Assembly (NCBI RefSeq): GCF_004912165.1
Contig: NZ_STGV01000003.1
Coordinates: 434,001-498,000, forward strand
Reading direction: 5' to 3'
From: Peteryoungia ipomoeae
GTDB taxonomy: Bacteria; Pseudomonadota; Alphaproteobacteria; Rhizobiales; Rhizobiaceae
Length of the DNA: 64,000 nucleotides
The translations under genes were made by a program, and so were the position numbers. This document shows, piece by piece, positions 5,795 to 40,332 of this stretch; within the stretch, counting starts at the first letter, position 1; each line of letters begins with the position of its first letter. Under the pieces are notes generated by a model. The model did not search any database. It was not told the origin of the DNA and saw only the letters and a program-made list of their open reading frames with translations.

Positions 5795-7126
5795 ATGCAG
5801 TCACATTTGCAGGGAACGCCGCGTATTGCGCTCGTTTCCACCCATGGTTATGTCGCAGCCCACCCGCCGCTTGGCGCCGCCGATACCGGTGGCCAGGTGG
5901 TCTACGTGCTGGAACTGGCCAAGAAGCTGGCGCAGTTGGGGCACAAGGTCGATATCTTTACCCGCCGCTTTGAAGATCAGCCTGAAATCGACGAGGTCGA
6001 CGAGAATGTGCGGGTGGTGCGCATTCCCTGCGGTGGCCCGGACTTTATTGCGAAGGAATATCTGCACCGTCACCTGACCGAGTGGAACGAAAAGGCGCTG
6101 CGCTGGATCAAGCAGCAAGACCTCAACTACCTCTTCATCAACAGCCACTACTGGGATGCCGGCGTTGCCGGTCAGCGCCTGTCGGAGGCGTTGAAAGTTC
6201 CGCATATCCACACACCGCACTCACTGGGACTCTGGAAGAAGCGGCAGATGGAGACGGATTACCCTGAACGGGCCGACCGTTTTGAAGCGGAATTCAACTT
6301 CAAGGAACGCATTCAGCATGAGCTGATCGTCTATCGCAGCTGCCAGATGGTGATCGCGACGACACCGATCCAGCTCGACATGCTGATGGAGGACTACAAT
6401 CTTCCGCGCAACCGGGTGCACATGATCCCGCCTGGCTATGACGACAACCGCTTCTTCCCCGTCTCGGAATCTTCAAGGCAGATGGTGCGTCAGCGTTTCG
6501 GCTTCGAGGGGCGGACGGTGCTGGCGCTTGGTCGCCTTGCAACGAACAAGGGATATGATCTGCTGATCGACGGATTCCAGGTTCTGTCCGAGCGCATGCC
6601 GGACGCGCGTCTGCGCCTCGCGCTTGGCGGCGAAAACATGGACGAGCAGGAACAGACCATCCTCGCTCAGCTGAAGCGACAGGTGCAGGACCTCGGCATT
6701 TCAGACAAGGTGGAGTTCTCTGGGTTCATTGCCGACGAAGACCTGCCCGACATGTATCGCGCCGCCGATCTCTTCGTTTTGTCCAGCCGCTACGAGCCCT
6801 TCGGCATGACGGCGATCGAGGCGATGGCGAGCGGCACGCCGACCATCGTCACCGTGCATGGCGGTCTTTTCCGCGCCATCAGCTACGGCCGGCACGCGCT
6901 GTTTGCAGATCCATTTGACAAATACGATCTTGGGATCACCATGATGAAACCGCTCAAGCATCCACGCTTATACGGACGCCTGTCGCGGATGGGGGCCCAC
7001 AAGGCGCGCAGCCTGTTCACCTGGACCGGCATTGCACAGCAGCTTGTGGCGCTGGTCGAGGGGCGTCCGGGAGCGCAGGCTCTGGAAGAAAGCGATTGGG
7101 CGGAACCATGGAACGACGGGGATTGA
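5795..7126 (+). CDS. mfpsA: Mannosylfructose-phosphate synthase (GT4 glycosyltransferase)
   Basis: 443 residues, start ATG 5795 behind a GTGGGGA sequence. The N-terminal domain has THGYVAAHPP and the sucrose-phosphate-synthase-like glycine loop DTGGQVVYV (residues 30-38). The C-terminal domain has ALGRLATNKGYD for the nucleotide-sugar site and the GT4 E-x7-E motif in EPFGMTAIEAMASGTP. The protein matches the Agrobacterium mannosylfructose-phosphate synthase, which transfers mannose from GDP-mannose to fructose 6-phosphate to make the osmolyte precursor. The partner phosphatase follows with overlapping genes, which supports this over a plain sucrose-phosphate synthase. Substrate choice is inferred from family and pairing. 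Confidence 0.85.
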   Translation: MQSHLQGTPRIALVSTHGYVAAHPPLGAADTGGQVVYVLELAKKLAQLGHKVDIFTRRFEDQPEIDEVDENVRVVRIPCGGPDFIAKEYLHRHLTEWNEKALRWIKQQDLNYLFINSHYWDAGVAGQRLSEALKVPHIHTPHSLGLWKKRQMETDYPERADRFEAEFNFKERIQHELIVYRSCQMVIATTPIQLDMLMEDYNLPRNRVHMIPPGYDDNRFFPVSESSRQMVRQRFGFEGRTVLALGRLATNKGYDLLIDGFQVLSERMPDARLRLALGGENMDEQEQTILAQLKRQVQDLGISDKVEFSGFIADEDLPDMYRAADLFVLSSRYEPFGMTAIEAMASGTPTIVTVHGGLFRAISYGRHALFADPFDKYDLGITMMKPLKHPRLYGRLSRMGAHKARSLFTWTGIAQQLVALVEGRPGAQALEESDWAEPWNDGD

Positions 7127-29174: not shown

Positions 29175-29248
29175 TGGGGAATAGTTCAACGGTAGAACGA
29201 CGGACTCTGACTCCGTTAATCTTGGTTCGAATCCAGGTTCCCCAGCCA
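29175..29248 (+). tRNA. tRNA-Gln (anticodon CTG)
   Basis: A complete cloverleaf can be drawn. The acceptor stem is TGGGGAA with TTCCCCA, the D arm GTTC-AACGGTA-GAAC, and the anticodon arm ACGGA-CTCTGAC-TCCGT with CTG in the centre. The T arm is CTTGG-TTCGAAT-CCAGG, then discriminator G and an encoded CCA end. A T-rich run follows at 29252-29257. Confidence 0.95.
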
Positions 29249-29595: not shown

Positions 29596-30381
29596 TCAGG
29601 ACATGATCAGTCCGCCATCGACGTTGATAGTTTGGCCGGTAATATAGGCCGCATCGGCTGAGGCCAGGAATGCGACAAGGGCGGCGACTTCGGCCGGAGT
29701 GCCGGCGCGGCCCATCGGAATGCCTTCGACCCATTCCTTCATCAACTCGCCCGGACCGTATTCGCCGAGCATCTTGCCCCAGACGCGGTCGTTGTAGTCC
29801 CACATTTCGGTGTGGATGATGCCGGGGCAGATGGCATTGACCGTGATGCCTTCCTTCGCCAGTTCCTTGGCAAGGCTCTGGGTCAGGCCGACGACACCGA
29901 ATTTCGAGGCGGCATAATGGGGCGTGTAGATGAAACCCTGACGGGCCTGGCCGGATGCCGTGTTGATCAGCCGTCCCTTGATGCCGTTTGACCGGAAGCG
30001 CGCAATCGCTTCCTGGCAGCAGAGGAAAACACCCTTTGTGTTGACGTCGAGGTTGAGATCCCACTCGCGTTCGCTCAAATCCTCGACCTTGGCGATGGTG
30101 ATGACGCCGGCATTCTGGACCGAGACATTGAGCGGACCGAGACGGGCTTCCGCCTCCCCATAGGCTTCGCGGACGGCGGAGGCGTTCGTGACGTCGAGCT
30201 GCAGCCCGAACACGTCTGCGCCCGTGTCATCGGCCAGCCGACGCGCCACTTCGCTGGTATCGGCCTCGATCGCGGCGATTGCGACCTTCGCCCCCTCTTC
30301 GGCGAAGCGGCGGGCGATACCGAGGCCAATCCCCTTGTTGCCACCGGTGACAAAGACGGCCTGTCCGACAAAACGCTGCAT
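29596..30381 (-). CDS. SDR family dehydrogenase of the sugar/polyol cluster
   Basis: 261 residues, a classical short-chain dehydrogenase. The cofactor loop is TGGNKGIGLG, the NAG motif is in QNAGVITIAK, the catalytic Ser lies in NTASGQARQ and the YxxxK pair in HYAASK. The C-terminal part has CPGIIHTEMWD and ends ITGQTINVDGGLIMS. It probably oxidises a polyol or sugar alcohol with NAD(P). It is the last gene of a minus-strand operon with a SorC regulator, FGGY kinase and split transketolase. The exact substrate is unknown. Confidence 0.9.
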   Translation of the reverse strand: MQRFVGQAVFVTGGNKGIGLGIARRFAEEGAKVAIAAIEADTSEVARRLADDTGADVFGLQLDVTNASAVREAYGEAEARLGPLNVSVQNAGVITIAKVEDLSEREWDLNLDVNTKGVFLCCQEAIARFRSNGIKGRLINTASGQARQGFIYTPHYAASKFGVVGLTQSLAKELAKEGITVNAICPGIIHTEMWDYNDRVWGKMLGEYGPGELMKEWVEGIPMGRAGTPAEVAALVAFLASADAAYITGQTINVDGGLIMS

Positions 30382-30432: not shown

Positions 30433-31383
30433 TCAGGCTGTCAGTCGGGCTGCGGTAAATTTATCCGTGACGAGCACGTCGATGATGCCCATCCTCAGGG
30501 CACCGGCGATTGCCTCGGTCTTCGATTCGCCTCCCGCCAACGCGATCACGCGGTCCGCCTTGCGCAGGTCCTCGAGCGAAATGCCAATGACGCGTTCGTT
30601 CAGCGGCGTTTCAACCGGCTTGCCGTCCCGATCGTAGAAGCGGAACGAAATCTCGCCCACGGCACCCGCATCGTGCAACATCGCCATCTCCTGGCGTGAG
30701 AAGACGTTGCCGGAGCGGGCCAGGAGTTCCGACGGCTCAACGGCGCCGATGCCGATGATGGCGAGGCTCAAGCGGCCGAAGAGATCCATCGTTCCACGGA
30801 CAACGGGGTCGGCCAGCATCACGAGCTTTGCCTCGCGGGAGGAGGTAATGCCCTGGACGAGCAGCAATCGCGGTTCGCCGCCGGTCAATTTTGCCAGCCG
30901 TGCCGTCAGCTGGGTTGCATGCGTCTGGACCGAGGCTTCCCCCATGCCGCCGAGGATCTGCACGATATACTTGGCGCGGCCGGACTTCAGCGGGTGAATG
31001 TTGTCGACCATGCGCAGGATGGTCTGGCTCCAGCTGGAGACGCCGATGATTTCGTCCTGCTGCAGCGTCACCTCGACGAAATGCGCTGCCGCCTCGCCGA
31101 TGCGCGCCATGATCGCGCCGTCGCGATCCTCCGAACAGTCGATCACGATTGCCTCGGTCAGGCCGTAGCGTTCGCGGAGGCCGGTTTCCAGATCGGCGAA
31201 GGTGCCAGGCGGCGGAATGATCGTCGTGCGGACGATCCCCTCCATCTCGGCGCGCTTGAGCATCCGGGATACCGTTGCCTGCGACATGTGCATGATCTCT
31301 GCGATCTCTGCCTGTCGCTTGCCCTCGGCGTGATACATCTGCGCGACGCGGGCGATAAGTCGAAGCTCGTTGAGACGTCCCAT
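30433..31383 (-). CDS. SorC/DeoR-type sugar-binding transcriptional regulator
   Basis: 316 residues from ATG 31383, which has GGAGGG 3 bp upstream; an upstream ATG at 31413 would translate the operator palindrome. The N-terminal helix-turn-helix is RQAEIAEIMHMSQATVSRML. The rest is the SorC sugar-binding domain (GVSSWSQTILRMV, then VQILGGMGEASVQTHA and ALAGGESKTEAIAGAL), which senses a phosphorylated sugar in known members such as SorC, DeoR-like CggR and EryD. It lies between the kinase and SDR genes and next to a perfect palindrome, so it probably controls this cluster and itself. Confidence 0.9.
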   Translation of the reverse strand: MGRLNELRLIARVAQMYHAEGKRQAEIAEIMHMSQATVSRMLKRAEMEGIVRTTIIPPPGTFADLETGLRERYGLTEAIVIDCSEDRDGAIMARIGEAAAHFVEVTLQQDEIIGVSSWSQTILRMVDNIHPLKSGRAKYIVQILGGMGEASVQTHATQLTARLAKLTGGEPRLLLVQGITSSREAKLVMLADPVVRGTMDLFGRLSLAIIGIGAVEPSELLARSGNVFSRQEMAMLHDAGAVGEISFRFYDRDGKPVETPLNERVIGISLEDLRKADRVIALAGGESKTEAIAGALRMGIIDVLVTDKFTAARLTA

Positions 31384-31395
31384 GAACCCTCCGGT

Positions 31396-31415
31396 GGGTG
31401 AATTTTTATTCACCC
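31396..31415. promoter_or_regulatory. Palindromic operator before the SorC-type regulator gene
   Basis: GGGTGAAT-tttt-ATTCACCC is a perfect 20-bp palindrome 12 bp upstream of the regulator start, overlapping the last codons of the kinase gene. Its core TGAAT-N4-ATTCA recurs in variant form at 34736 and 34876, in the divergent promoter of the cluster. Confidence 0.7.
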
Positions 31416-32875
31416 ATAGAGGATGTCATTGATACCGTCGAGCGGAAGATTGCGTCTTGCCATGTGGAGATGCGTTCGGTTGTATCGGTCGGTTTCGGCG
31501 CCAGAACCTCCGTCTTTCGCGGCAGCATTCTCACGGCGTCGAGATCAGCCCACAGACCGAGCGTCAGGCCGGCGAGATAGGCCGCCCCGAGCGCAGAGGC
31601 TTCCGCCGCCTCGCACTGGATGACGGGATGCGCAAGCATGTCGGCAACGCACTGCATGAGGAAGGCATTCTTGCTCGGTCCACCATCGACGAACAATCGC
31701 CCGAGCGGTGCCGGTGACTGCGAGGCCATGGCCTTGAACACGTCATGCACCTGAAAGGCGATGGAATCTGTGACGGCGCGTGCCATCTGCGCCCGGGTGG
31801 TGTTGAAGGTTATACCCGAAAACAGCGCCCGTGCGTCCGCGTGCCAATAGGGTGCACCGAGGCCGACGAAAGCGGGGACGAAGCCCGGCCCCTGCGGTTC
31901 TGCTGTCTCCGCGAGATCGATCAACGCCCGGACATCGGGCAGTCCGAGGATATTGACCATCCAGGGCAGCGAGGCGGCCGAAACCAGAATATTGCCTTCA
32001 AAGGCATAGGTCGGCTTACCACCGAGCGACCAGGCAATCGTCGTGGTGATGCCGCTTTGAGGCGCGATGAAGTGCGGCAGGGTCGTCATGATCGATGAGC
32101 CGGTGCCGAAGGTGACCTTGCCGTCACCGGGCTCAAAGGCGCCATGGCCGAAAAGCGCTGCGTGGCTGTCTCCGATGGCGGCGGCAATCGGGATGCCGTC
32201 GGCGAGGCCGGGGACATCAAGCGTTACGCCGAAACGGGATGCGCTGTCGCGGACCTCCGGCAGATAGGCTTTCGGTACTCCAAAGAGATCGCAGAGCTCA
32301 TCGCTCCAGACATTTCTGTTCAGATCGAGCAGCTGGCTTCGCGCCGCATTGGATGCATCGCAGGCATGGGTTTTGCCGCCGGTAAAGCAATGTATGAGCC
32401 AGGAATCGACCGTGCCGAGCCGCAGCGGGCGGCCACTCGGGGCACGATCGAGCAGCCATTTCATTTTGGGACCGGGGAACATGGGATCGATGGGCAGGCC
32501 GGTGAGCGCCTCGACGCGCGCAGAATGACCGGCCGCGTTGAGTTCGGCACAGACAGGCGCGCTGCGGCGGCACTGCCAGCTGACGACCGGACCGAGCGGC
32601 TTTCCGGTTTCACCATCCCAGATCGTTACCGATTCGCGCTGGTTCGAGATCGCGATCCCCGCAATGGTCACGTCAGAGGCGGCGGCGAGACAGGCAGCAA
32701 TCGCTTCCAGCACGGACTGCCAGACACGATCGGGATCCTGTTCCACCCAGCCCGGTTGCGGATGGGAGATGCCGACGGGGGAAGACCCTCGGGCCAGGAT
32801 CTCCCCCTTGGAGGAGACGAGCACGGCCTTCGAGTTCGTGGTTCCCTGATCGATCGCGAGGATGGCGGTGGTCAT
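31406..32875 (-). CDS. FGGY family carbohydrate kinase, glycerol-kinase-like
   Basis: 489 residues from ATG 32875 (GGAG upstream). The N-terminal phosphate loop is LAIDQGTTNSKAVL; IAISNQRESVTIWD and VVSWQCRRS follow as in glycerol kinases. The C-terminal domain has the second ATP-binding elements FGTGSSIMTTL and FVDGGPSKNAFLMQ. FGGY enzymes phosphorylate glycerol, erythritol, xylulose, ribulose, apulose and similar sugars. Here it is flanked by a two-subunit transketolase and a SorC regulator, so a ketose or polyol is more likely than glycerol. The specificity cannot be fixed by eye. Confidence 0.88.
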   Translation of the reverse strand: MTTAILAIDQGTTNSKAVLVSSKGEILARGSSPVGISHPQPGWVEQDPDRVWQSVLEAIAACLAAASDVTIAGIAISNQRESVTIWDGETGKPLGPVVSWQCRRSAPVCAELNAAGHSARVEALTGLPIDPMFPGPKMKWLLDRAPSGRPLRLGTVDSWLIHCFTGGKTHACDASNAARSQLLDLNRNVWSDELCDLFGVPKAYLPEVRDSASRFGVTLDVPGLADGIPIAAAIGDSHAALFGHGAFEPGDGKVTFGTGSSIMTTLPHFIAPQSGITTTIAWSLGGKPTYAFEGNILVSAASLPWMVNILGLPDVRALIDLAETAEPQGPGFVPAFVGLGAPYWHADARALFSGITFNTTRAQMARAVTDSIAFQVHDVFKAMASQSPAPLGRLFVDGGPSKNAFLMQCVADMLAHPVIQCEAAEASALGAAYLAGLTLGLWADLDAVRMLPRKTEVLAPKPTDTTERISTWQDAIFRSTVSMTSSMGE

Positions 32876-32896
32876 GTGGGCTCCGGATGTTGGCAA

Positions 32897-32922
32897 ATGC
32901 CGCCGGACTTCATCGGCGGCAT
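32897..32922. repeat. Intra-operon stem-loop between transketolase and kinase genes
   Basis: ATGCCGCCG-N8-CGGCGGCAT, a 9-bp perfect stem in the 69-bp gap. It could reduce read-through into the kinase or protect the transketolase mRNA end. There is no T-run. Confidence 0.5.
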
Positions 32923-32944
32923 CCAAGATATGGTTCCGCAGCCG

Positions 32945-33913
32945 TCAGCCACGAGCGCCCTTGCGCGCCAGCAGTTCTTCTGCCGCCGTCGCCATGGCTT
33001 CCGGTGCCATACCGAATTCGTCGAGCAGGAACTCGGCCGATCCAGTCGGCGCGAAGATACCAGGCACACCCAGGATCTTCATCGGCACAGGGGCTTCCGC
33101 CACGACGACTTCGGCGACAGCCGAACCGAGACCACCATAGACCGAATGCTCCTCGGCCGTCAGGATGGCGCCCGTTTCGCGCGCTGCAGCAACAATGCTG
33201 TCAACGTCGATCGGTCGCACGGTCGCCATGTTGAGTACGCGCGCCTCGATGCCGCGGGCAGCAAGGATAGCGGCCGCCTTCATGGCGCGGTGGGTCAAGG
33301 TGCCATTGGCAATCAGGGTAACCGCATCACCGTCACGCAGGAGGTTGGCCTTTCCGGGCTCGAACACATGCCCCGCAGGAAGCAGGTCCGGCACGCCAAC
33401 GCGCGACAGGCGCAGGAAGACCGGGCCTTCGTAGCGTGCGGCCCATTCAACGGCGGCTGCCGTCTCGATCGAGTCACAGGGCGCGATCACCGGGAGATTG
33501 GGCAGCACCCGCATCCAGGCGAAATCCTCGATCGAGTGATGTGTCGGGCCGAGCTCGCCATAGGCCATGCCCGAGGAGATACCCACCAGCTTCACATTGG
33601 CGTTCGAATAGGCGATGTCGGCCTTGACCTGTTCGAGCGAGCGCCCCGTCAGGAAGCAGGAGGCGCCGCAGACGAAAGGCAACAGGCCGCCATTTGCAAG
33701 GCCGGCGCCGACGCCGACCATGTTCTGTTCGGCAATACCGACATTCACCAGCCGTTCCGGCCATTTCGACTTGAAGCCACCGAGCTTGGAGGAGCCGACG
33801 GAGTCGTTGCAGACGGCGACGACCTTGGGGTTTTCGGCACCGAGGCGCTCAAGCACGGAAACGAAGGCGTCACGGCAGTCATGCAGTTTTTCGGTCATGG
33901 TCACGGCATTCAT
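32945..33913 (-). CDS. Transketolase C-terminal subunit
   Basis: 322 residues from ATG 33913, with GGAGG 7 bp upstream; a GTG at 33916 is directly adjacent and also possible. It contains the pyrimidine-binding domain (VNVGIAEQNMVGVGAGLA, with the catalytic Glu) and the C-terminal domain (VLNMATVRPIDVDSIV, then LTAEEHSVYGGLGSAVAEV). It is therefore the second half of a transketolase split into two proteins, like DXS/AptB-type and archaeal-style enzymes. Its start overlaps the stop of the partner gene, implying a 1:1 heteromer. Confidence 0.9.
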   Translation of the reverse strand: MNAVTMTEKLHDCRDAFVSVLERLGAENPKVVAVCNDSVGSSKLGGFKSKWPERLVNVGIAEQNMVGVGAGLANGGLLPFVCGASCFLTGRSLEQVKADIAYSNANVKLVGISSGMAYGELGPTHHSIEDFAWMRVLPNLPVIAPCDSIETAAAVEWAARYEGPVFLRLSRVGVPDLLPAGHVFEPGKANLLRDGDAVTLIANGTLTHRAMKAAAILAARGIEARVLNMATVRPIDVDSIVAAARETGAILTAEEHSVYGGLGSAVAEVVVAEAPVPMKILGVPGIFAPTGSAEFLLDEFGMAPEAMATAAEELLARKGARG

Positions 33914-34722
33914 CACAGCACCTCCGCGAGCTCGGCCAGGGCAATCTGGTATTGTTCGGCATTCGGCACCTTGTGATGCCAGTCCACCCTGTCCTGCATG
34001 AAGGAAATGCCGTGCCCCTTGTTGGTGTGGGCGACGATGCAGTGGGGACGACCGGAGCGATGCTGCAAGGCCGGCACGATTTCGGCCATGGCGTTGCCGT
34101 TGATCTCCGTCACCTCCCAGCCGAAGGCCTGAAGCTTCGAGCCGAACGGCGCCATGTTGTTGGTATCACTGAGGGCCGCCCCCTGCTGGAAGCGATTGTG
34201 ATCGATGATCAGCGTGAGATTATCGAGACCGAACTGGGCGGCCGAGGAAATGGCTTCCCAATTGGAGCCTTCCTGCATTTCGCCGTCACCGGTCAGAACA
34301 TAGGTGTGATAGGCAGCACCTGTCAGCTTGGCCGCCTTTGCCATGCCGACCGCAACGGGCAGCCCATGGCCGAGAGGCCCGGTATTGGTCTCGACGCCCG
34401 GCACCTTGTTGCAGTTCGGGTGCCCGTTGAGACGCGAATGCGGCTTCAGGAAGGTCGAAAGCTCCTCCTCGGGGAAGAAGCCGCGCTTCGCCAGCGTCAC
34501 ATAAAACGCCAGGGCGACATGGCCCTTCGACAACACGAAACGATCACGCTCCGGATGCTTCGGCTGGTCTGGCCAGACCCTCAGGACCTGAAAATACAGC
34601 GCCGTCAGGATGTCGATCGCCGACATCTCGCCGCCGATATGGCCAGCGCCCGCTTCGTAAACCGCCTGAAGATCGCGAAGGCGTATCTGCCTCGCAATGC
34701 GGTCGAGATCATTCGGCTGCAT
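33913..34722 (-). CDS. Transketolase N-terminal (thiamine-diphosphate-binding) subunit
   Basis: 269 residues. It has AGAGHIGGEMSAIDILTAL near the start, the invariant KGHVALAFY, GPLGHGLPVAVGMA, and the thiamine diphosphate/magnesium motif TGDGEMQEGSNWEA ending in the IDHNRFQ region. This is the complete PP domain of a split transketolase. The ThDP enzyme transfers two-carbon ketol units between sugar phosphates. It is the first gene of the minus-strand operon, immediately behind the divergent regulatory region, so it may be the committed cleavage step after the kinase. Confidence 0.9.
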   Translation of the reverse strand: MQPNDLDRIARQIRLRDLQAVYEAGAGHIGGEMSAIDILTALYFQVLRVWPDQPKHPERDRFVLSKGHVALAFYVTLAKRGFFPEEELSTFLKPHSRLNGHPNCNKVPGVETNTGPLGHGLPVAVGMAKAAKLTGAAYHTYVLTGDGEMQEGSNWEAISSAAQFGLDNLTLIIDHNRFQQGAALSDTNNMAPFGSKLQAFGWEVTEINGNAMAEIVPALQHRSGRPHCIVAHTNKGHGISFMQDRVDWHHKVPNAEQYQIALAELAEVL

Positions 34723-34735
34723 GGAAACCTCATTG

Positions 34736-34749
34736 TGAATAAATATACT
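34736..34749. promoter_or_regulatory. SorC-type operator half, transketolase side
   Basis: TGAAT-aaat-ATACT, 13 bp upstream of the transketolase start on the minus strand. It matches the core of the palindrome at 31399-31412 and the site at 34876-34889. Confidence 0.5.
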
Positions 34750-34875
34750 CTACGTCATATAATTGCATTCTGTCCGTGACTGTCAAGCTGGAGACGTGAA
34801 ATTAAATCTCCCGATCGCCACAGATGTGCAGTTGACAGCTGAATGATGCCTAGGTTACGAATTTACAGACATCAA

Positions 34876-34889
34876 TGAATATTTATACT
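34876..34889. promoter_or_regulatory. SorC-type operator half, transporter side
   Basis: TGAAT-attt-ATACT, 37 bp upstream of the permease start. With the copy at 34736 it brackets the 204-bp divergent promoter region (34723-34926); their starts are exactly 140 bp apart, compatible with a repressor bridging both sites. Confidence 0.5.
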
Positions 34890-34926
34890 ATGTCGTGTTC
34901 GGCAGGTAGCAGCATGGGAGGAGTGC

Positions 34927-35901
34927 ATGTCGGTGTCAGCGACAGACCAGGATCGCGGTGCAGGCGTAAATGCGCTGGCGGCGTTGAGAGGAACGACAGG
35001 CCCCCTGATCGGCCTCATTCTCTTGTGCCTCTTCCTCTCGTTTGCCACTGACAAGTTTATGTCGGCGCGCAACCTGCTCAATATTCTCGACCAGATCACG
35101 GTTCTCGGGATCATGGCGGTCGGCATGACCATGGTGATCCTGATCGGTGGCATCGACCTCGCCGTCGGCTCGGTTCTGGCCCTCACCATGATGGTGATGG
35201 GTTATCTCGCCAACCAGGTCGGCCTGCCCCTGCCCGTCGGCATCCTGCTTGCTCTCGTTGTGGCTGCAGCAACAGGCGCGGTCTCCGGATTGCTCATCAC
35301 TGCGCTCGGGGTGCCAGCTTTCATTGCGACGCTCGCGATGATGTCGGTCGCTCGCGGACTTGCAAACATGATCACCGACGGCCAGCAAATCGTCGGCTTC
35401 CCCTCCTGGTTCAGCTTGCTTGCCTATACCCGCTTTGGCGGTTTCCTGACGCTGACCGTGGCCGTGATGCTTGTCGTCTTCGTGCTCGGCTGGCTCTACC
35501 TGCGCTACACGACAGGCGGACGCTCGCTCTATGCAATCGGCGGCAATCAGGAAGTCGCCCGCCTCGCCGGCATCAACGTCAACCTCTACACAATCGGCGT
35601 TTATGTCGTCTCCGGCCTGCTCGCCGGGCTTGCGGGCATCGTACTTGCCATGCGGCTCGACTCCGTTCAGCCGACGGCCGGCGTGTCGTACGAACTGGAT
35701 ACGATCGCAGCCGTCGTCATTGGCGGAACAAGCCTGAGCGGCGGCAAGGGCGGCATTCTCGGCACCATCATCGGCGTGCTGATCATCGGTGTCTTGCGCA
35801 ATGGTCTGAACCTTCTCGGTGTCTCGCCCTTTACGCAGGCCGTCGTGATCGGCGTCGTCATCGCCCTTGCAGTCGCAGCCGAAGCCATCAAGAGGAAGTG
35901 A
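34927..35901 (+). CDS. ABC transporter permease, ribose/monosaccharide type
   Basis: 324 residues from ATG 34927 behind GGGAGGAG. It is very hydrophobic with about ten membrane segments. Family motifs include IGGIDLAVGSVLAL, LYAIGGNQEVARLAGI and TLSGGKG-like TSLSGGKGGILG, all of the RbsC/BPD_transp_2 class. It forms the channel of an importer with the binding protein and ATPase encoded just downstream. It is the first gene of the plus-strand operon, divergent from the transketolase operon across the two operator-like sites. The substrate is likely a small sugar or polyol. Confidence 0.92.
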   Translation: MSVSATDQDRGAGVNALAALRGTTGPLIGLILLCLFLSFATDKFMSARNLLNILDQITVLGIMAVGMTMVILIGGIDLAVGSVLALTMMVMGYLANQVGLPLPVGILLALVVAAATGAVSGLLITALGVPAFIATLAMMSVARGLANMITDGQQIVGFPSWFSLLAYTRFGGFLTLTVAVMLVVFVLGWLYLRYTTGGRSLYAIGGNQEVARLAGINVNLYTIGVYVVSGLLAGLAGIVLAMRLDSVQPTAGVSYELDTIAAVVIGGTSLSGGKGGILGTIIGVLIIGVLRNGLNLLGVSPFTQAVVIGVVIALAVAAEAIKRK

Positions 35902-36013: not shown

Positions 36014-36949
36014 ATGAAACTCAAGACCATGCTTCTGGCTGCTGCAGCCCTGGCGACAACGGCCCTCAATCCCCTCGGCGCATCCGCCGAAGAGGTGAAG
36101 AAGATCGGGCTCGCCGTCTCGAACCTGCAGGCAGACTACTTCAACCAGATCAAGATCGGTGTCGAAAGCTATGCCAAGGAAAAGGGCATCGAAGTCATCA
36201 CCGTCGACGCAAAGAACGACAGCGCGACCCAGGTCAGCCAGGTGCAGGACTTGCTGACGCAGGACATCGACGCCTTCATCTACATCCCGGCCGGCGCTGC
36301 GGCTGCCGCCGTCCCGACCCGTCTTGCCAAGGAAGCCGGCATCCCGGTCGTCAACGTCGACCGCAACGCCGATGAAGCGCCGGGCGACACCTTCATTGCA
36401 ACCGACAACGCGACATCGGCCTACGAAGTCTGCAAGCACATCATCGGCCTGGCCGGTGGCAAGGGCAAGATGCTGATGATCCACGGGCAGAAGGGCACGA
36501 CGCCCGAGGTCGAGCGGACAAAGGGCTGCATGAAGGCGATCGAGGAGAATTCCGGCGTCGAGCTAGTGGCACAGCAGTGGAGCGAGCAGTGGTCGCAGGC
36601 CGAGGGTCTCAACATCGGCCAGAACCTGTTGCAGGCCCATCCGGACGTCTCGCTGATCTTCGCACAGGCTGACGGCCTGGCTCTCGGCGCAGCACAGGCG
36701 GTCAAGGTCTCCGGCGTTTCGCAGCGCGTCTATGTCGGCGGCTTCGACGGCGACACGACGGCTCTGCCGATCCTCGCAGAGAAAGGCTTTGACGCGACAG
36801 CAACACAGCAAGTGCGTGGCATCGGCCGCCTCGCGGTCGATAGCGCCATCAAGCTTGCTGCTGGCGAAAAGCTGCCGGCCGAACAGCTGCTCCCGGGCTT
36901 CCTGACGACGCCTGAGAACGCTGCGAAGTTCGTCGCCGAGCATCCCTGA
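36014..36949 (+). CDS. ABC transporter substrate-binding protein, ribose-binding family
   Basis: 311 residues from ATG 36014, preceded by GGAGGAGATC. The signal peptide (MKLKTMLLAAAALATTALN) likely ends at GASA-EEV. The mature protein is a periplasmic-binding type I fold of the RbsB family: IGLAVSNLQADYFNQI, DAFIYIPAG, VVNVDRNADEAPGD, GGFDGDTTALPIL. Aromatic and charged residues in AVSNLQADYF and VDRNAD are the usual ligand contacts. It captures the sugar for the permease. Specificity cannot be deduced from sequence alone. Confidence 0.92.
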   Translation: MKLKTMLLAAAALATTALNPLGASAEEVKKIGLAVSNLQADYFNQIKIGVESYAKEKGIEVITVDAKNDSATQVSQVQDLLTQDIDAFIYIPAGAAAAAVPTRLAKEAGIPVVNVDRNADEAPGDTFIATDNATSAYEVCKHIIGLAGGKGKMLMIHGQKGTTPEVERTKGCMKAIEENSGVELVAQQWSEQWSQAEGLNIGQNLLQAHPDVSLIFAQADGLALGAAQAVKVSGVSQRVYVGGFDGDTTALPILAEKGFDATATQQVRGIGRLAVDSAIKLAAGEKLPAEQLLPGFLTTPENAAKFVAEHP

Positions 36950-36970: not shown

Positions 36971-38464
36971 ATGACTGCCAACGACCTCTCTCCCATCCTC
37001 TCACTCCGGCAGATCCGCAAGGTCTACGGATCACTTGAGGTCCTGCACGGCATCGACCTCGATGTGAGAGCGGGTGAAGTGGTGGCGCTGCTGGGTGAAA
37101 ACGGCGCCGGAAAATCGACCCTGTCGAAGATCATTTCCGGCGCTGTCCAGCCGACTTCCGGCACCATGACCTGGTTCGGCGCGCCATACGCGCCGGCCAC
37201 TCCCCGCGCCGCCATGGATGCCGGTCTCGGCATGATCCATCAGGAGCTGAAGCTCCTGCCGCAACTGTCGATCGCCGAGAATGTCTTCGTCGGTCGCTAC
37301 CTCACCAAGGCAGGACGCGTCGATCGCCAGGCAATGGAGGAACGCGCGCATGCCGGCCTGCAGAGGCTGGGCCTCGACGTCTCCCCGCGCCGACTGGTGG
37401 AAGGTCTGTCCACGGCCAAGCAGCAATTGATCGAAATCGCCAAGGCGATGACCCTGAATGCGCGCCTGCTCATTCTTGACGAGCCGACGGCAGCGCTCGG
37501 TGGTGAAGAAACGCAGCTGCTGTTCCGCCAGATCGAGCGCCTGAAGGCCGATGGCGTCGGCATCATCTACATCTCGCATCGACTTGAGGAAATTCGGCAG
37601 ATCGCAGACCGCATCGTGGTGATGCGCGACGGTGCCAAGGTGCAGGAATTCGACACGGGCGACGTGCCCGTGCGTACCATTGTCGAGGCGATGGTCGGCC
37701 GCTCGCTCGACCGCATGTTCCCCGCCATCCCGGCACCGTCCGACGATGTCATGCTCGAAGTCCGCGGTCTTTCATCGCCATTCGGCACCTTCCGCAACAT
37801 TGATTTCGCGGTAAAGCGCGGCGAAGTCTTCGGCATTGCAGGCCTGGTGGGCGCTGGCCGTACCGAACTCGTGCGCGCGATCACCGGTGCGGATCCGATC
37901 GCAACCGGCGACGTCGTGCTCGACGGCAAGGTGATCACGCCGCGATCGCCGAGAGACGCGATACGGAACGGTGTCGTGCTTGTGCCGGAAGACCGCAAGC
38001 TTCAGGGCCTCGTCCTCGAACATTCGATCACGGAAAACATCGGTTACGCCAATTTCGACGCGGTGTCGAAGACCGGCTGGATGACCTCGAAACGGCTCAA
38101 CCAATTCGCCGACGGCTATATCAAAAAGTTCGGCGTCAAGGGTCGCGGCGAGCAGAATGCCGGCGAGCTTTCGGGTGGCAACCAGCAGAAGGTGGTTCTT
38201 GCCAAGTGGCTGGCCAGAAATCCCAAGGTGGTCGTGCTGGACGAACCGACCCGCGGCATCGATGTCGGCGCACGCTCGTCGATCTACGATACCATTATGG
38301 AGCTCGCCCGCCAGGGCATCGCCGTTATTGTCGTCAGCTCGGATCTGGAAGAGGTGCTTGGCGTCTCCAACCGGATCATGGTGATGGCGCAAGGAAAACA
38401 GGCTGGCATCCTCGACCGGAAAGACGCCAACGACGTGTCGGTCATGGAACTGGCCACGATCTGA
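36971..38464 (+). CDS. ABC transporter ATP-binding protein, double-domain sugar type
   Basis: 497 residues with two ABC cassettes, as in RbsA/MglA. The first has Walker A GENGAGKST, signature LSTAKQQLIEIAKAM and Walker B LLILDEPTAALG. The second has a modified Walker A (GLVGAGRTE), signature LSGGNQQKVVLAKWL and Walker B VVVLDEPTRGIDVG. The asymmetric second P-loop is normal for this family. It energises uptake together with the preceding permease and binding protein. It ends 18 bp before the second SDR gene. Confidence 0.93.
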   Translation: MTANDLSPILSLRQIRKVYGSLEVLHGIDLDVRAGEVVALLGENGAGKSTLSKIISGAVQPTSGTMTWFGAPYAPATPRAAMDAGLGMIHQELKLLPQLSIAENVFVGRYLTKAGRVDRQAMEERAHAGLQRLGLDVSPRRLVEGLSTAKQQLIEIAKAMTLNARLLILDEPTAALGGEETQLLFRQIERLKADGVGIIYISHRLEEIRQIADRIVVMRDGAKVQEFDTGDVPVRTIVEAMVGRSLDRMFPAIPAPSDDVMLEVRGLSSPFGTFRNIDFAVKRGEVFGIAGLVGAGRTELVRAITGADPIATGDVVLDGKVITPRSPRDAIRNGVVLVPEDRKLQGLVLEHSITENIGYANFDAVSKTGWMTSKRLNQFADGYIKKFGVKGRGEQNAGELSGGNQQKVVLAKWLARNPKVVVLDEPTRGIDVGARSSIYDTIMELARQGIAVIVVSSDLEEVLGVSNRIMVMAQGKQAGILDRKDANDVSVMELATI

Positions 38465-38482: not shown

Positions 38483-39271
38483 ATGTCGGACATGACTTTG
38501 AACGCCCCGAAGCTCTTCGATCTCTCGGGCAATGTGGCTTTGGTGACGGGAGCCGGCAGCGGCATCGGCCAGCGGATCGCGATCGGGCTTGCGCAGTGCG
38601 GGGCGGACGTTGCTCTCCTCGACCGCCGCAGCGATGACGGCCTCGCCACCACTGCGCGTTACGTAAAGGCGGCCGGTCGCCGCAGCATCGAGATCGCGGC
38701 AGATGTCACCCAAGCCACGGCGCTGACCGAGGCCGTTTCACGGACCGAAGCCGAACTCGGGCCGCTGACGCTCGCCGTCAATGCGGCCGGCATCGCCAAC
38801 GCCAATCCGGCCGAGGAGATGGAAGAAACGCAATTCCAGACCATGATGGACATCAACCTCAAGGGTGTCTTTCTCTCCTGCCAGGCGGAAGCCCGGGCCA
38901 TGCTGAAGAACGGCCGCGGCTCGATCATCAATATCGCCTCCATGTCGGGCGTGATCGTCAATCGCGGTCTCAACCAGTGCCACTACAACGCCTCCAAGGC
39001 GGGCGTGATCCACATGTCGAAATCCATGGCGATGGAGTGGGTGGGGCGCGGCATCCGCGTCAACACCATCAGCCCCGGATACACGGCGACGCCGATGAAC
39101 ACCCGGCCGGAAATGGTTCACCAGACGAAACTGTTCGAAGAGCAGACCCCGATGCAGCGCATGGCAAATGTGGACGAGATGGTCGGCCCCGCCGTTTTCC
39201 TGCTCTCCGATGCTGCAAGCTTCGTCACCGGTGTCGACCTCCTCGTCGACGGTGGCTTCTGCTGCTGGTGA
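38483..39271 (+). CDS. SDR family dehydrogenase, second of the cluster
   Basis: 262 residues. Cofactor loop TGAGSGIGQRIA, an Asp after the second strand (ALLDRRSDD) that favours NAD, NAAGIANANP, catalytic Ser in NIASMSG, and CHYNASKAG with the YxxxK pair. The C-terminus is SFVTGVDLLVDGGFCCW. It is distinct from the first SDR at 29596. Cotranscription with the transporter suggests it acts early, oxidising the imported polyol or sugar to the kinase substrate. A strong terminator follows. Confidence 0.9.
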   Translation: MSDMTLNAPKLFDLSGNVALVTGAGSGIGQRIAIGLAQCGADVALLDRRSDDGLATTARYVKAAGRRSIEIAADVTQATALTEAVSRTEAELGPLTLAVNAAGIANANPAEEMEETQFQTMMDINLKGVFLSCQAEARAMLKNGRGSIINIASMSGVIVNRGLNQCHYNASKAGVIHMSKSMAMEWVGRGIRVNTISPGYTATPMNTRPEMVHQTKLFEEQTPMQRMANVDEMVGPAVFLLSDAASFVTGVDLLVDGGFCCW

Positions 39272-39332: not shown

Positions 39333-39437
39333 ATTTCGCGACTTTGAGCATGGCAGATGCGACATAGTATGGAAAATTGCCGTTTTTCCGGAGTTTAAGC
39401 TTGAAATGTCGGTGCCTTCTCCCCTACCTTAAAAGGG

Positions 39438-39574
39438 TTCTCAGGGCGGGGTGAAATTCCCCACCGGCGGTATCCGGCATTGCCGGGAGCCCGCGAGCGC
39501 TTTCATCTCGGTGAAAGGCAGCAGATCCGGTGCGATGCCGGAGCCGACGGTTAGAGTCCGGATGAAAGAGAATA
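39438..39574 (+). ncRNA. FMN riboswitch (RFN element)
   Basis: The conserved blocks of the RFN aptamer are all present: TTCTCAGGGCGGGGTGAAA at the start, CCCCACCGGCGGTA, AGCCCGCGAGCG, CAGCAGATCCGGTG, GCCGGAGCCGACGGTTA and AGTCCGGATGAAAGAGAA closing the outer stem. It sits 120 bp upstream of ribB. FMN binding would lower ribB expression. The hairpin at 39588-39604 lies in the expression platform. Confidence 0.93.
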
Positions 39575-39587
39575 TCGGCTGTTGCGG

Positions 39588-39604
39588 CTCCCCTCGCCGG
39601 GGAG
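39588..39604 (+). repeat. Hairpin in the ribB leader downstream of the riboswitch
   Basis: CTCCCC-tcgcc-GGGGAG, a 6-bp GC-rich stem between the aptamer and the ribB start. There is no T-run, so control may be at translation or by Rho rather than intrinsic termination. Confidence 0.5.
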
Positions 39605-39693
39605 GCGTGCATGCTGTGTTCGCCCAAGGGATGGATGGCGGCCGGAAGGTCGTGGTTTTGCCGCTTACGCGGTTACCCTTGAAAGGCACTGGA

Positions 39694-40332
39694 ATGACAC
39701 TTTCGAAAATTGAAGACGCATTGGATACCCTCGCGCGCGGCGGCATGGTTGTGGTTGTCGACGACGAGGATCGCGAAAATGAAGGCGACATCATCGTCGC
39801 ATCCGATCACGTAACGCCCGAGACCATCGCTTTCATGATGAAGCATGCCCGCGGGCTCGTCTGCATTGCCATGGAAGGCGAAAGGCTGGATGCACTCGAC
39901 ATCCCGCTGATGGTTCCGAACAACACGGAATACCTTAAGACGGCCTTCACCGTATCCGTGGACTATATTCACGGGACGACCACCGGGATCTCTGCGGCAG
40001 ACAGAGCCGCGACCGTCCGGGCATTGATGGATGAGGCGACCAAGCCCGAAGACTTTGCGCGCCCGGGTCACATTTTCCCGCTGCGCGCCCATCCCGACGG
40101 CGTCCTCGGGCGTCCGGGACACACGGAGGCTGCCGTCGATCTCGCTCGCCTGATTGGCGCCAAACCATCCGGCGTGATCTGTGAGGTTGCCAACGACGAT
40201 GGCACCATGGCGCGGCTGCCCGACCTGATCGAGTTCTGCAAGCTGCATGGTTTGCCGCTGATTTCGATCGAAGACCTGATCCGTTACAGGGCCGTCAACA
40301 GCGATACGCCTCAGCCCGCTGCTGCTGCCTGA
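39694..40332 (+). CDS. ribB: 3,4-dihydroxy-2-butanone 4-phosphate synthase
   Basis: 212 residues from ATG 39694. The acidic loop DDEDRENEGDII, MMKHARGLVCIAM, DYIHGTTTGISAADRA, FARPGHIFPLRA and GHTEAAVDLARLIG are diagnostic of RibB. It converts ribulose 5-phosphate to formate and the four-carbon precursor of riboflavin. The GTP cyclohydrolase II domain found in bifunctional RibBA is absent. Control by the FMN riboswitch is expected. It is monocistronic and followed by an intrinsic terminator. Confidence 0.95.
   Translation: MTLSKIEDALDTLARGGMVVVVDDEDRENEGDIIVASDHVTPETIAFMMKHARGLVCIAMEGERLDALDIPLMVPNNTEYLKTAFTVSVDYIHGTTTGISAADRAATVRALMDEATKPEDFARPGHIFPLRAHPDGVLGRPGHTEAAVDLARLIGAKPSGVICEVANDDGTMARLPDLIEFCKLHGLPLISIEDLIRYRAVNSDTPQPAAAA

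Follow-up and report, generated by a model that had tools for sequence, protein, structure and literature searches.

Predicted operators of a SorC-family regulator in a split-transketolase sugar gene cluster of Peteryoungia ipomoeae

In a sugar gene cluster of Peteryoungia ipomoeae, a short palindromic sequence recurs three times close to the genes that it might control, and one of these genes encodes a SorC-family regulator, which raises the question of whether the three sites are the operators of that regulator and how they would act. The cluster lies in a 64,000-nucleotide stretch (the window; contig NZ_STGV01000003.1, positions 434,001 to 498,000 of assembly GCF_004912165.1) of a 4.39-Mb genome. 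On the minus strand its genes run in the order TktA-TktB (a split transketolase), FGGY kinase, SorC regulator and SDR1, and a divergent plus-strand group encodes a permease, a binding protein, an ATPase and SDR2. Based on the sequence comparisons described here, we suggest that the three sites are very probably binding places of the cluster's own SorC repressor, and we consider it highly probable that this protein, a member of the DeoR subfamily, acts as a local repressor through two double operators and one additional site.

Exact matches to TGAAT-N4-ATWCW were found at 31399-31412 (S1, matching on both strands), 34736-34749 (S2) and 34876-34889 (S3), the three places at which the original prediction had located them, and the further matches listed for the window, at 6283, carry a mismatch. 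S1 is a single palindromic putative operator of the form TGAAT-N4-ATTCA, and its arms reach 31396-31415. Taken in this full length, GGGTGAAT-TTTT-ATTCACCC, it ends 12 bp ahead of the regulator ATG (31383) and includes the final codons and the stop codon of the kinase (GGT GAA TAA). Its position before the regulator and its overlap with the kinase 3' end were thus as predicted, but it is not the full 20-bp palindrome that had been claimed, because 16 of its 20 bases are paired in two 8-bp arms around a non-palindromic TTTT centre. S2 and S3, the strong halves of the predicted transketolase-promoter and transporter-promoter operators, respectively, lie in the 204-bp divergent region (34723-34926), and recomputation gave the same start-to-start distance of 140 bp.

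When we searched the whole genome, the exact pattern occurred at five places, three of them inside this 3.5-kb stretch. The two remaining matches lie within a 552-aa frame (L005) and over the start of a 125-aa frame (L006), where the match probably stands ahead of a cold-shock-protein part of the frame, as judged by eye. The degenerate pattern TGMATAWWTATNCN was found in the genome at only two places, S2 and S3. Since the motif was derived from these very sites, statistics within the window are weak, and the independent evidence beyond chance comes from conservation. As a separate observation, a palindrome with one mismatch, TGAATTTTTTTTCA, lies at L065:10885, a few kb away from the gene for a SorC paralog in the same genome.

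Conservation of the sites was examined in several sets of loci. At an E value of 1e-60, 28 of 151 family genomes (the window's own included) matched the regulator, giving 27 orthologous loci, and 27 of these 28 genomes contain TGMATAWWTATNCN. A further 80 loci, the best 80 of 303 and many of them from the same genomes as the 27, were combined with the window into a set of 81; the closest relatives of the regulator come from Rhizobium and Peteryoungia loci (98-99% identity). Gene order is full in 62 of the 81 loci, nine have SDR1 moved behind SDR2, and ten are cut or variant. S1 is exact, at less than 130 bp from the SorC start, in 77 loci and has one mismatch in another, that of Labrys (L137), while elsewhere in the 81 loci exact TGAAT-N4-ATTCA was found once in 1,457,820 positions examined. 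In each of the 76 divergent regions that are complete, a pattern that was kept fixed after it had been loosened on sites already known matched once near the TktA start (S2), once near the permease start (S3) and nowhere else; L070, L096, L111, L112 and L122 had been left out because of a contig end or a transporter located elsewhere. A TktA search of 397 genomes of the order and 385 of the class yielded 27 loci besides that of the window, including five from genomes of the earlier sets, and 23 of the 27 have two sites.

The sites also follow their genes through rearrangement. In the rearranged loci L059-L063 they stand ahead of the relocated genes, and in Labrys S1 still adjoins sorC even though SDR1 sits between the kinase and sorC. 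The conservation in related genomes that had been proposed as a check on the sites was therefore found. Two neighbouring observations concern other genes. In the outlying relative L058, two more operator-like sites (L058:2963 and L058:3079) lie 3' of sorC toward another ABC ATPase gene, which suggests that a different transporter belongs to the same regulon. On plasmid pRM41A of S. meliloti, a second SorC gene (L175:15602-16618) and an ABC transporter, kinases and an aldolase belonging to it stand beside the cluster.

When 82 sequences were aligned at the sites in the direction of the genes, with conservation given by weight, both S2 and S3 proved to have a second conserved site, weaker than the first, at a distance of exactly 18 bp upstream. 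At S2, the putative weak half is TGCAATTATATGAC (34754-34767, minus strand), in which TGCAA followed by TATAT is conserved at -18 to -8, the G and the first A at 100%. At S3, it is CGAATTTACAGACA (34858-34871, plus strand), in which YGAATTT and a C near the end are conserved at -18. When we scored all offsets, -18 was at the top for S2 (z 3.1), for S3 (z 4.7) and for 13 sites from distant loci (z 5.6). At S1, by contrast, -18 was not the top offset and there was no conserved 18-bp partner; the best offset there, -22, gave a low score and was not accepted as a site. The reading of S2 and S3 as putative double operators with an 18-bp repeat is new relative to the original prediction.

Conserved promoter-like elements accompany both double sites. 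The predicted transketolase promoter has a -35 element CTTGAC (34782-34787, minus strand) at -38 to -33, conserved at 95 to 100% (n=82), and the predicted transporter promoter has a -35 element TTGACA (34832-34837, plus strand) at -44 to -39, conserved at 92 to 98% (n=82). The TATAT of the weak half at S2 is likely to be a -10 element too, in which case binding of the regulator and of RNA polymerase would be mutually exclusive. A simple promoter scan reported six promoter-like sites against 0.9 expected. Among them were the transketolase promoter, at 34786, a TTTACA-N16-TATACT at 34862 that overlaps S3, and an ATGACA-N16-AAAAAT at 31429 over S1, while the scan missed both the conserved TTGACA of the transporter and a conserved CTCGAC ahead of sorC that is described below. 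We also observed a single T at 34851 on the plus strand, 25 bp before S3 and between the -35 element and operator 3, that is 88% conserved and whose role is not evident.

The original prediction had further raised possible DNA looping. In such a loop, repressor tetramers bound at operators 2 and 3, and perhaps also at S1 at a distance of 3.3 kb, would touch each other, so that the spacing matters. The S2-S3 spacings in the 76 regions were 129-131, 136, 139-141, 143-145, 149-154, 160-162, 255 and 359-361 bp, and those in distant relatives ranged from 107 to 305 bp. A spacing of 139-141 bp recurs in widely separated branches, L058 and Labrys included. Close-set spacings cluster in helical phase (lineage-collapsed n=19, R 0.58 at 10.5 bp, Rayleigh p 0.001, or 0.03 after a scan of repeat lengths) and the 16 insertions and deletions listed tend towards multiples of 10.5 (V-test p 0.003), but these p values are soft, since lineages were collapsed on the tree and insertions and deletions listed by eye, and the L174 value came from a site that the pattern missed. 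In the distant relatives, on the other hand, no phase clustering was detected (n=10, p 0.23), the pooled set was weak (n=29, p 0.04, or 0.50 after scanning), and the spacings of 136, 143-144 and 145 bp are out of phase. With phase clustering in close relatives and none in distant ones, we regard looping as possible but rather unlikely. Separately, the Agrobacterium loci L133, L134 and L140 carry about 207-209 extra bases between the operators compared with their nearest relatives.

The position of the sites relative to the promoter elements bears on the direction of control. Some SorC-family proteins have also been described as activators, and the regulator could act from these sites mainly as an activator, or as activator and repressor together. 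However, both S2 and S3 are situated downstream of a conserved -35 element, and S2 is also downstream of the likely -10 element. This is the usual position for a repressor, and we consider activation improbable.

We then considered S1, for which the original prediction had suggested a second internal promoter serving the regulator and SDR genes. Inside the kinase 3' end, a -35-like CTCGAC (31437-31442, minus strand) lies at -30 to -25 from S1 and is conserved at 96 to 100% by weight in 78 loci. It is followed at 17 bp by a -10-like CTATGG (31414-31419, minus strand) that touches S1; the T and A of this element are conserved at 96%, although its match to the consensus is weak. The rhizobial promoter consensus is CTTGAC-N17-CTATAT, and CTCGAC-N17-CTATGG is close to it. 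The kinase codons under CTCGAC are biased as well: CGC is used at 100% and TCG at 98% by weight, and these columns rank 14 and 7 of 327 for codon bias. As the six columns ranked above the TCG column are all serines and a nearby alanine GCA column ranks 8 of 327 without explanation, the codon ranks are supportive rather than conclusive. In Labrys, reading of the sequence revealed a kinase-end-like stretch with GCTCGAC and S1 ahead of sorC despite the intervening SDR1. Taken together, the conserved elements ahead of S1 and the biased codons support an internal promoter of sorC and SDR1, but fall short of proof.

S1 might alternatively be an RNA hairpin, or a relic of coding sequence between the kinase and the regulator, rather than an operator. 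The S1 RNA of the window folds better than shuffled sequences (z -3.65, none of 200 as good), and the Glu-stop of the kinase is encoded by part of S1. Like sequences in the divergent region, however, fold ordinarily (z 0.46 and 0.56), and the 14-bp core of S1 is near-invariant past the stop codon too. When we examined the outer arm pairs, the first was mostly kept (94 and 87%) while the next ones drift, a pattern that suits recognition by a protein more than a stem. Deinococcus, too, has a lone palindrome of this kind ahead of sorC. Based on these observations, we consider the hairpin or relic very improbable, and S1 is better read as a putative operator.

The regulator itself (30433-31383, minus strand, 316 aa) belongs to the SorC family and its DeoR subfamily. 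Its C-terminal sugar-binding domain matched PF04198 (6.6e-65; 219.3 bits against a cut-off of 27), its N-terminal helix-turn-helix matched HTH_23 at residues 9-50 (25.8 bits against 24.6), and the alignment with B. subtilis DeoR (8r7y_A, 2e-38) covers residues 9-314, thus also beginning at residue 9. The cut-offs for DeoR orthologs (NF053881, 214.8 bits against 420) and for LsrR orthologs (NF011947, 118.5 bits against 486) were not reached. A two-half operator, which is a trait of the SorC/DeoR subfamily, is present by sequence at S2 and S3 and was not seen at S1. All 16 aligned orthologs and the distant relatives share the recognition-helix pattern SQ..(V or I)SR, which none of the three SorC paralogs in the window's genome has.

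These distant relatives, with 42-44% identity to the regulator, are encoded on plasmids of Deinococcus, Erwinia, Rahnella, Sodalis and a Streptomyces, and their genes have TGAAT-N4-ATTCA upstream. According to annotation, they sit in split-transketolase clusters, except that the unannotated Streptomyces stretch was assigned by similarity, and the two Deinococcus SDRs are 66 and 67% identical to those of the window. The scan of these loci took in some 130 to 540 bp around the start of SorC, and within this range pairs of sites 18 bp apart were found twice each in Erwinia, Rahnella and Sodalis and once in Streptomyces, while Deinococcus has the lone palindrome ahead of sorC. For 12 of 13 chosen distant sites (ten in these loci and in that of E. 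coli SE15, and three in L061-L063), the best partner lies at +/-18 bp; the remaining one scores 8/10 at -18 and has a further strong site at +58. The local SorC regulon of the original prediction is thus supported by conservation over 81 loci and by a motif that accompanies the regulator into other families and phyla. We found nothing in favour of a regulator other than the encoded SorC at these sites, and this alternative is hardly credible, since the motif stays with SorC in rearranged clusters and in other phyla.

Excerpts of PMC11229326 describe DeoR and CggR as tetramers that occupy two half-operators and leave the DNA in response to phosphorylated sugars, CggR binding as a dimer of dimers. 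By analogy, we suggest that in the absence of inducer the SorC protein, presumably as a tetramer, would bind two double operators, 34736-34767 and 34858-34889, each consisting of a strong TGAAT-N4-ATTCA-type palindrome on the gene side and, 18 bp upstream, a weaker site of which mainly the outer half is preserved. As these operators coincide with the promoter elements from which transcription is predicted to start, or follow them closely, their occupation would shut off the transporter operon as well as the transketolase-kinase operon. At S1, located at the putative internal promoter in the kinase end, the protein would limit its own synthesis. As with DeoR and CggR, release might be brought about by a phosphorylated sugar that the pathway makes, for which an apulose-phosphate-like kinase product is a possible candidate.

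Several observations weigh against this repressor model. First, matches with one mismatch are not in excess in the window (6 against 6.29 expected), and TGMATAWWTATNCN has at least one match in 56 of 123 family genomes without an ortholog, several of which also match a reversed control pattern. Second, S1 is absent from three of the 81 loci (L124, L130 and L141), and among the 27 TktA loci two lack any site (L168 and L169) and two have a single one (L159 and L174). Third, no -10 element is evident for the transporter promoter in the 82-sequence alignment. Finally, DeoR had no affinity in vitro for single half-operators, according to excerpts of PMC11229326, yet S1 is single; and since the 18-bp repeat is unlike those of 22 and 20 bp in DeoR and CggR, their tetramer model is not directly transferable. 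With these points included, local repression by the encoded SorC protein remains our preferred reading.

The remaining genes of the cluster were typed by domain and by similarity to E. coli SE15. On the minus strand, SDR1 (29596-30381, 3' of sorC; Pfam adh_short_C2) is 57% identical to ECSF_RS02675, the AplK-like FGGY carbohydrate kinase (31406-32875; Pfam FGGY_N and FGGY_C) is 39% identical to ECSF_RS02700, and the two halves of the transketolase, both recognised by Pfam, are the C-terminal AptB-like TktB (32945-33916; 40% to ECSF_RS02715) and the N-terminal AptA-like TktA (33913-34722; 47% to ECSF_RS02710). The plus strand encodes a sugar ABC transporter permease (34927-35901; PF02653), binding protein (36014-36949; PF13407) and ATPase (36971-38464; PF00005 in two stretches), followed by SDR2 (38483-39271), which exceeds the NF004774 cut-off and is 65% identical to ECSF_RS02670. 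Glycerol kinases are the nearest solved structures of the kinase, and the PDB relatives of the binding protein, the kinase and the SDRs include proteins for many different sugars and do not decide the substrate. Around the cluster, a tRNA gene (29175-29245, plus strand) lies just past the SDR1 end. Behind SDR2 and ahead of ribB, a flavin mononucleotide (FMN) riboswitch was detected at 39433-39577 on the plus strand (RF00050, 114.4 bits). ribB is the frame 39451-40332 (DHBP_synthase 1e-85 from residue 88), and it also adjoins the corresponding cluster on A. tumefaciens pAspH13-3a.

When we compared the cluster with ECSF_RS02670-02715 of E. coli SE15, both were found to contain two SDRs, an ABC transporter, an FGGY kinase, a SorC protein (42% identity) and a split transketolase. 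The SE15 locus also has three double sites with the 18-bp repeat (L182:34678-36220), around the SorC, kinase and transketolase genes. It differs in an extra DUF2291 gene, in gene order, and in a binding protein that is just 27% identical. In excerpts of PMC13001218, the SE15 cluster is the query for a D-apiose cluster; this Escherichia type is without the isomerase apsI and has two oxidoreductases, which are hypothesised to take its place. According to the same excerpts, D-apiose supported growth of E. fergusonii and of three E. coli strains that carry such a cluster but not of K-12; SE15 is not named among the strains tested. The combination of aplK with split aptA/aptB that marks a D-apiose degradation cluster is present in the window at 39, 47 and 40% identity to SE15, and a Pectobacterium-type apsI is not among the nine typed genes of the cluster, to which the search was limited. 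On the best reading of these sequences, the two clusters are homologous, and, because they share the same kinds of genes at identities of 39-65%, the substrate is likely to be a branched pentose or its polyol. A common rhizobial cluster is thereby tied to the E. coli D-apiose cluster by genes and operators alike, and the operator provides a searchable sequence signature for finding the targets of the regulator. We did not find this operator reported in the literature searched, whose scope left out most subscription papers, and a search for SorC with transketolase in rhizobia gave nothing useful.

Among SorC-family regulators, the closest parallel is with B. subtilis DeoR, which is homologous to the window regulator over nearly its whole length and has the recognition helix SRPTVSR where the window protein has SQATVSR. 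In excerpts of PMC11229326, the dra-nupC-pdp operator of DeoR has the same 14-bp TGAA-N6-TTCA frame, and, as at S2 and S3, it combines a strong palindrome with a degenerate second half that keeps its outer half-site, and overlaps the promoter. In contrast to DeoR, three predicted operators lie in one locus here and the substrate pathway is a different one, and CggR differs in its DNA-binding domain and sequence. When we counted the repeat on the operator sequences quoted in those excerpts, it was 22 bp for DeoR and 20 bp for CggR, compared with 18 bp here. By simple arithmetic, 18 bp would place the two dimers about 100 degrees apart, whereas the DeoR and CggR tetramers are one-sided, so that, if the double operators are real, the tetramer must bend or twist the DNA or assemble differently. 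We tentatively propose, as a possibility with somewhat less in its favour than against it, that the 18-bp double operator is an ancestral mark of a transketolase-associated SorC clade in Alphaproteobacteria, Gammaproteobacteria and Streptomyces, that it represents a third SorC operator geometry, and that members of the clade sense a branched sugar phosphate. As a type of control this scheme is ordinary, yet it is old and well conserved and has an operator design of unexpected depth and precision. Together with CggR and DeoR it offers a natural test of how far a SorC tetramer tolerates half-operator spacings of 18, 20 and 22 bp.

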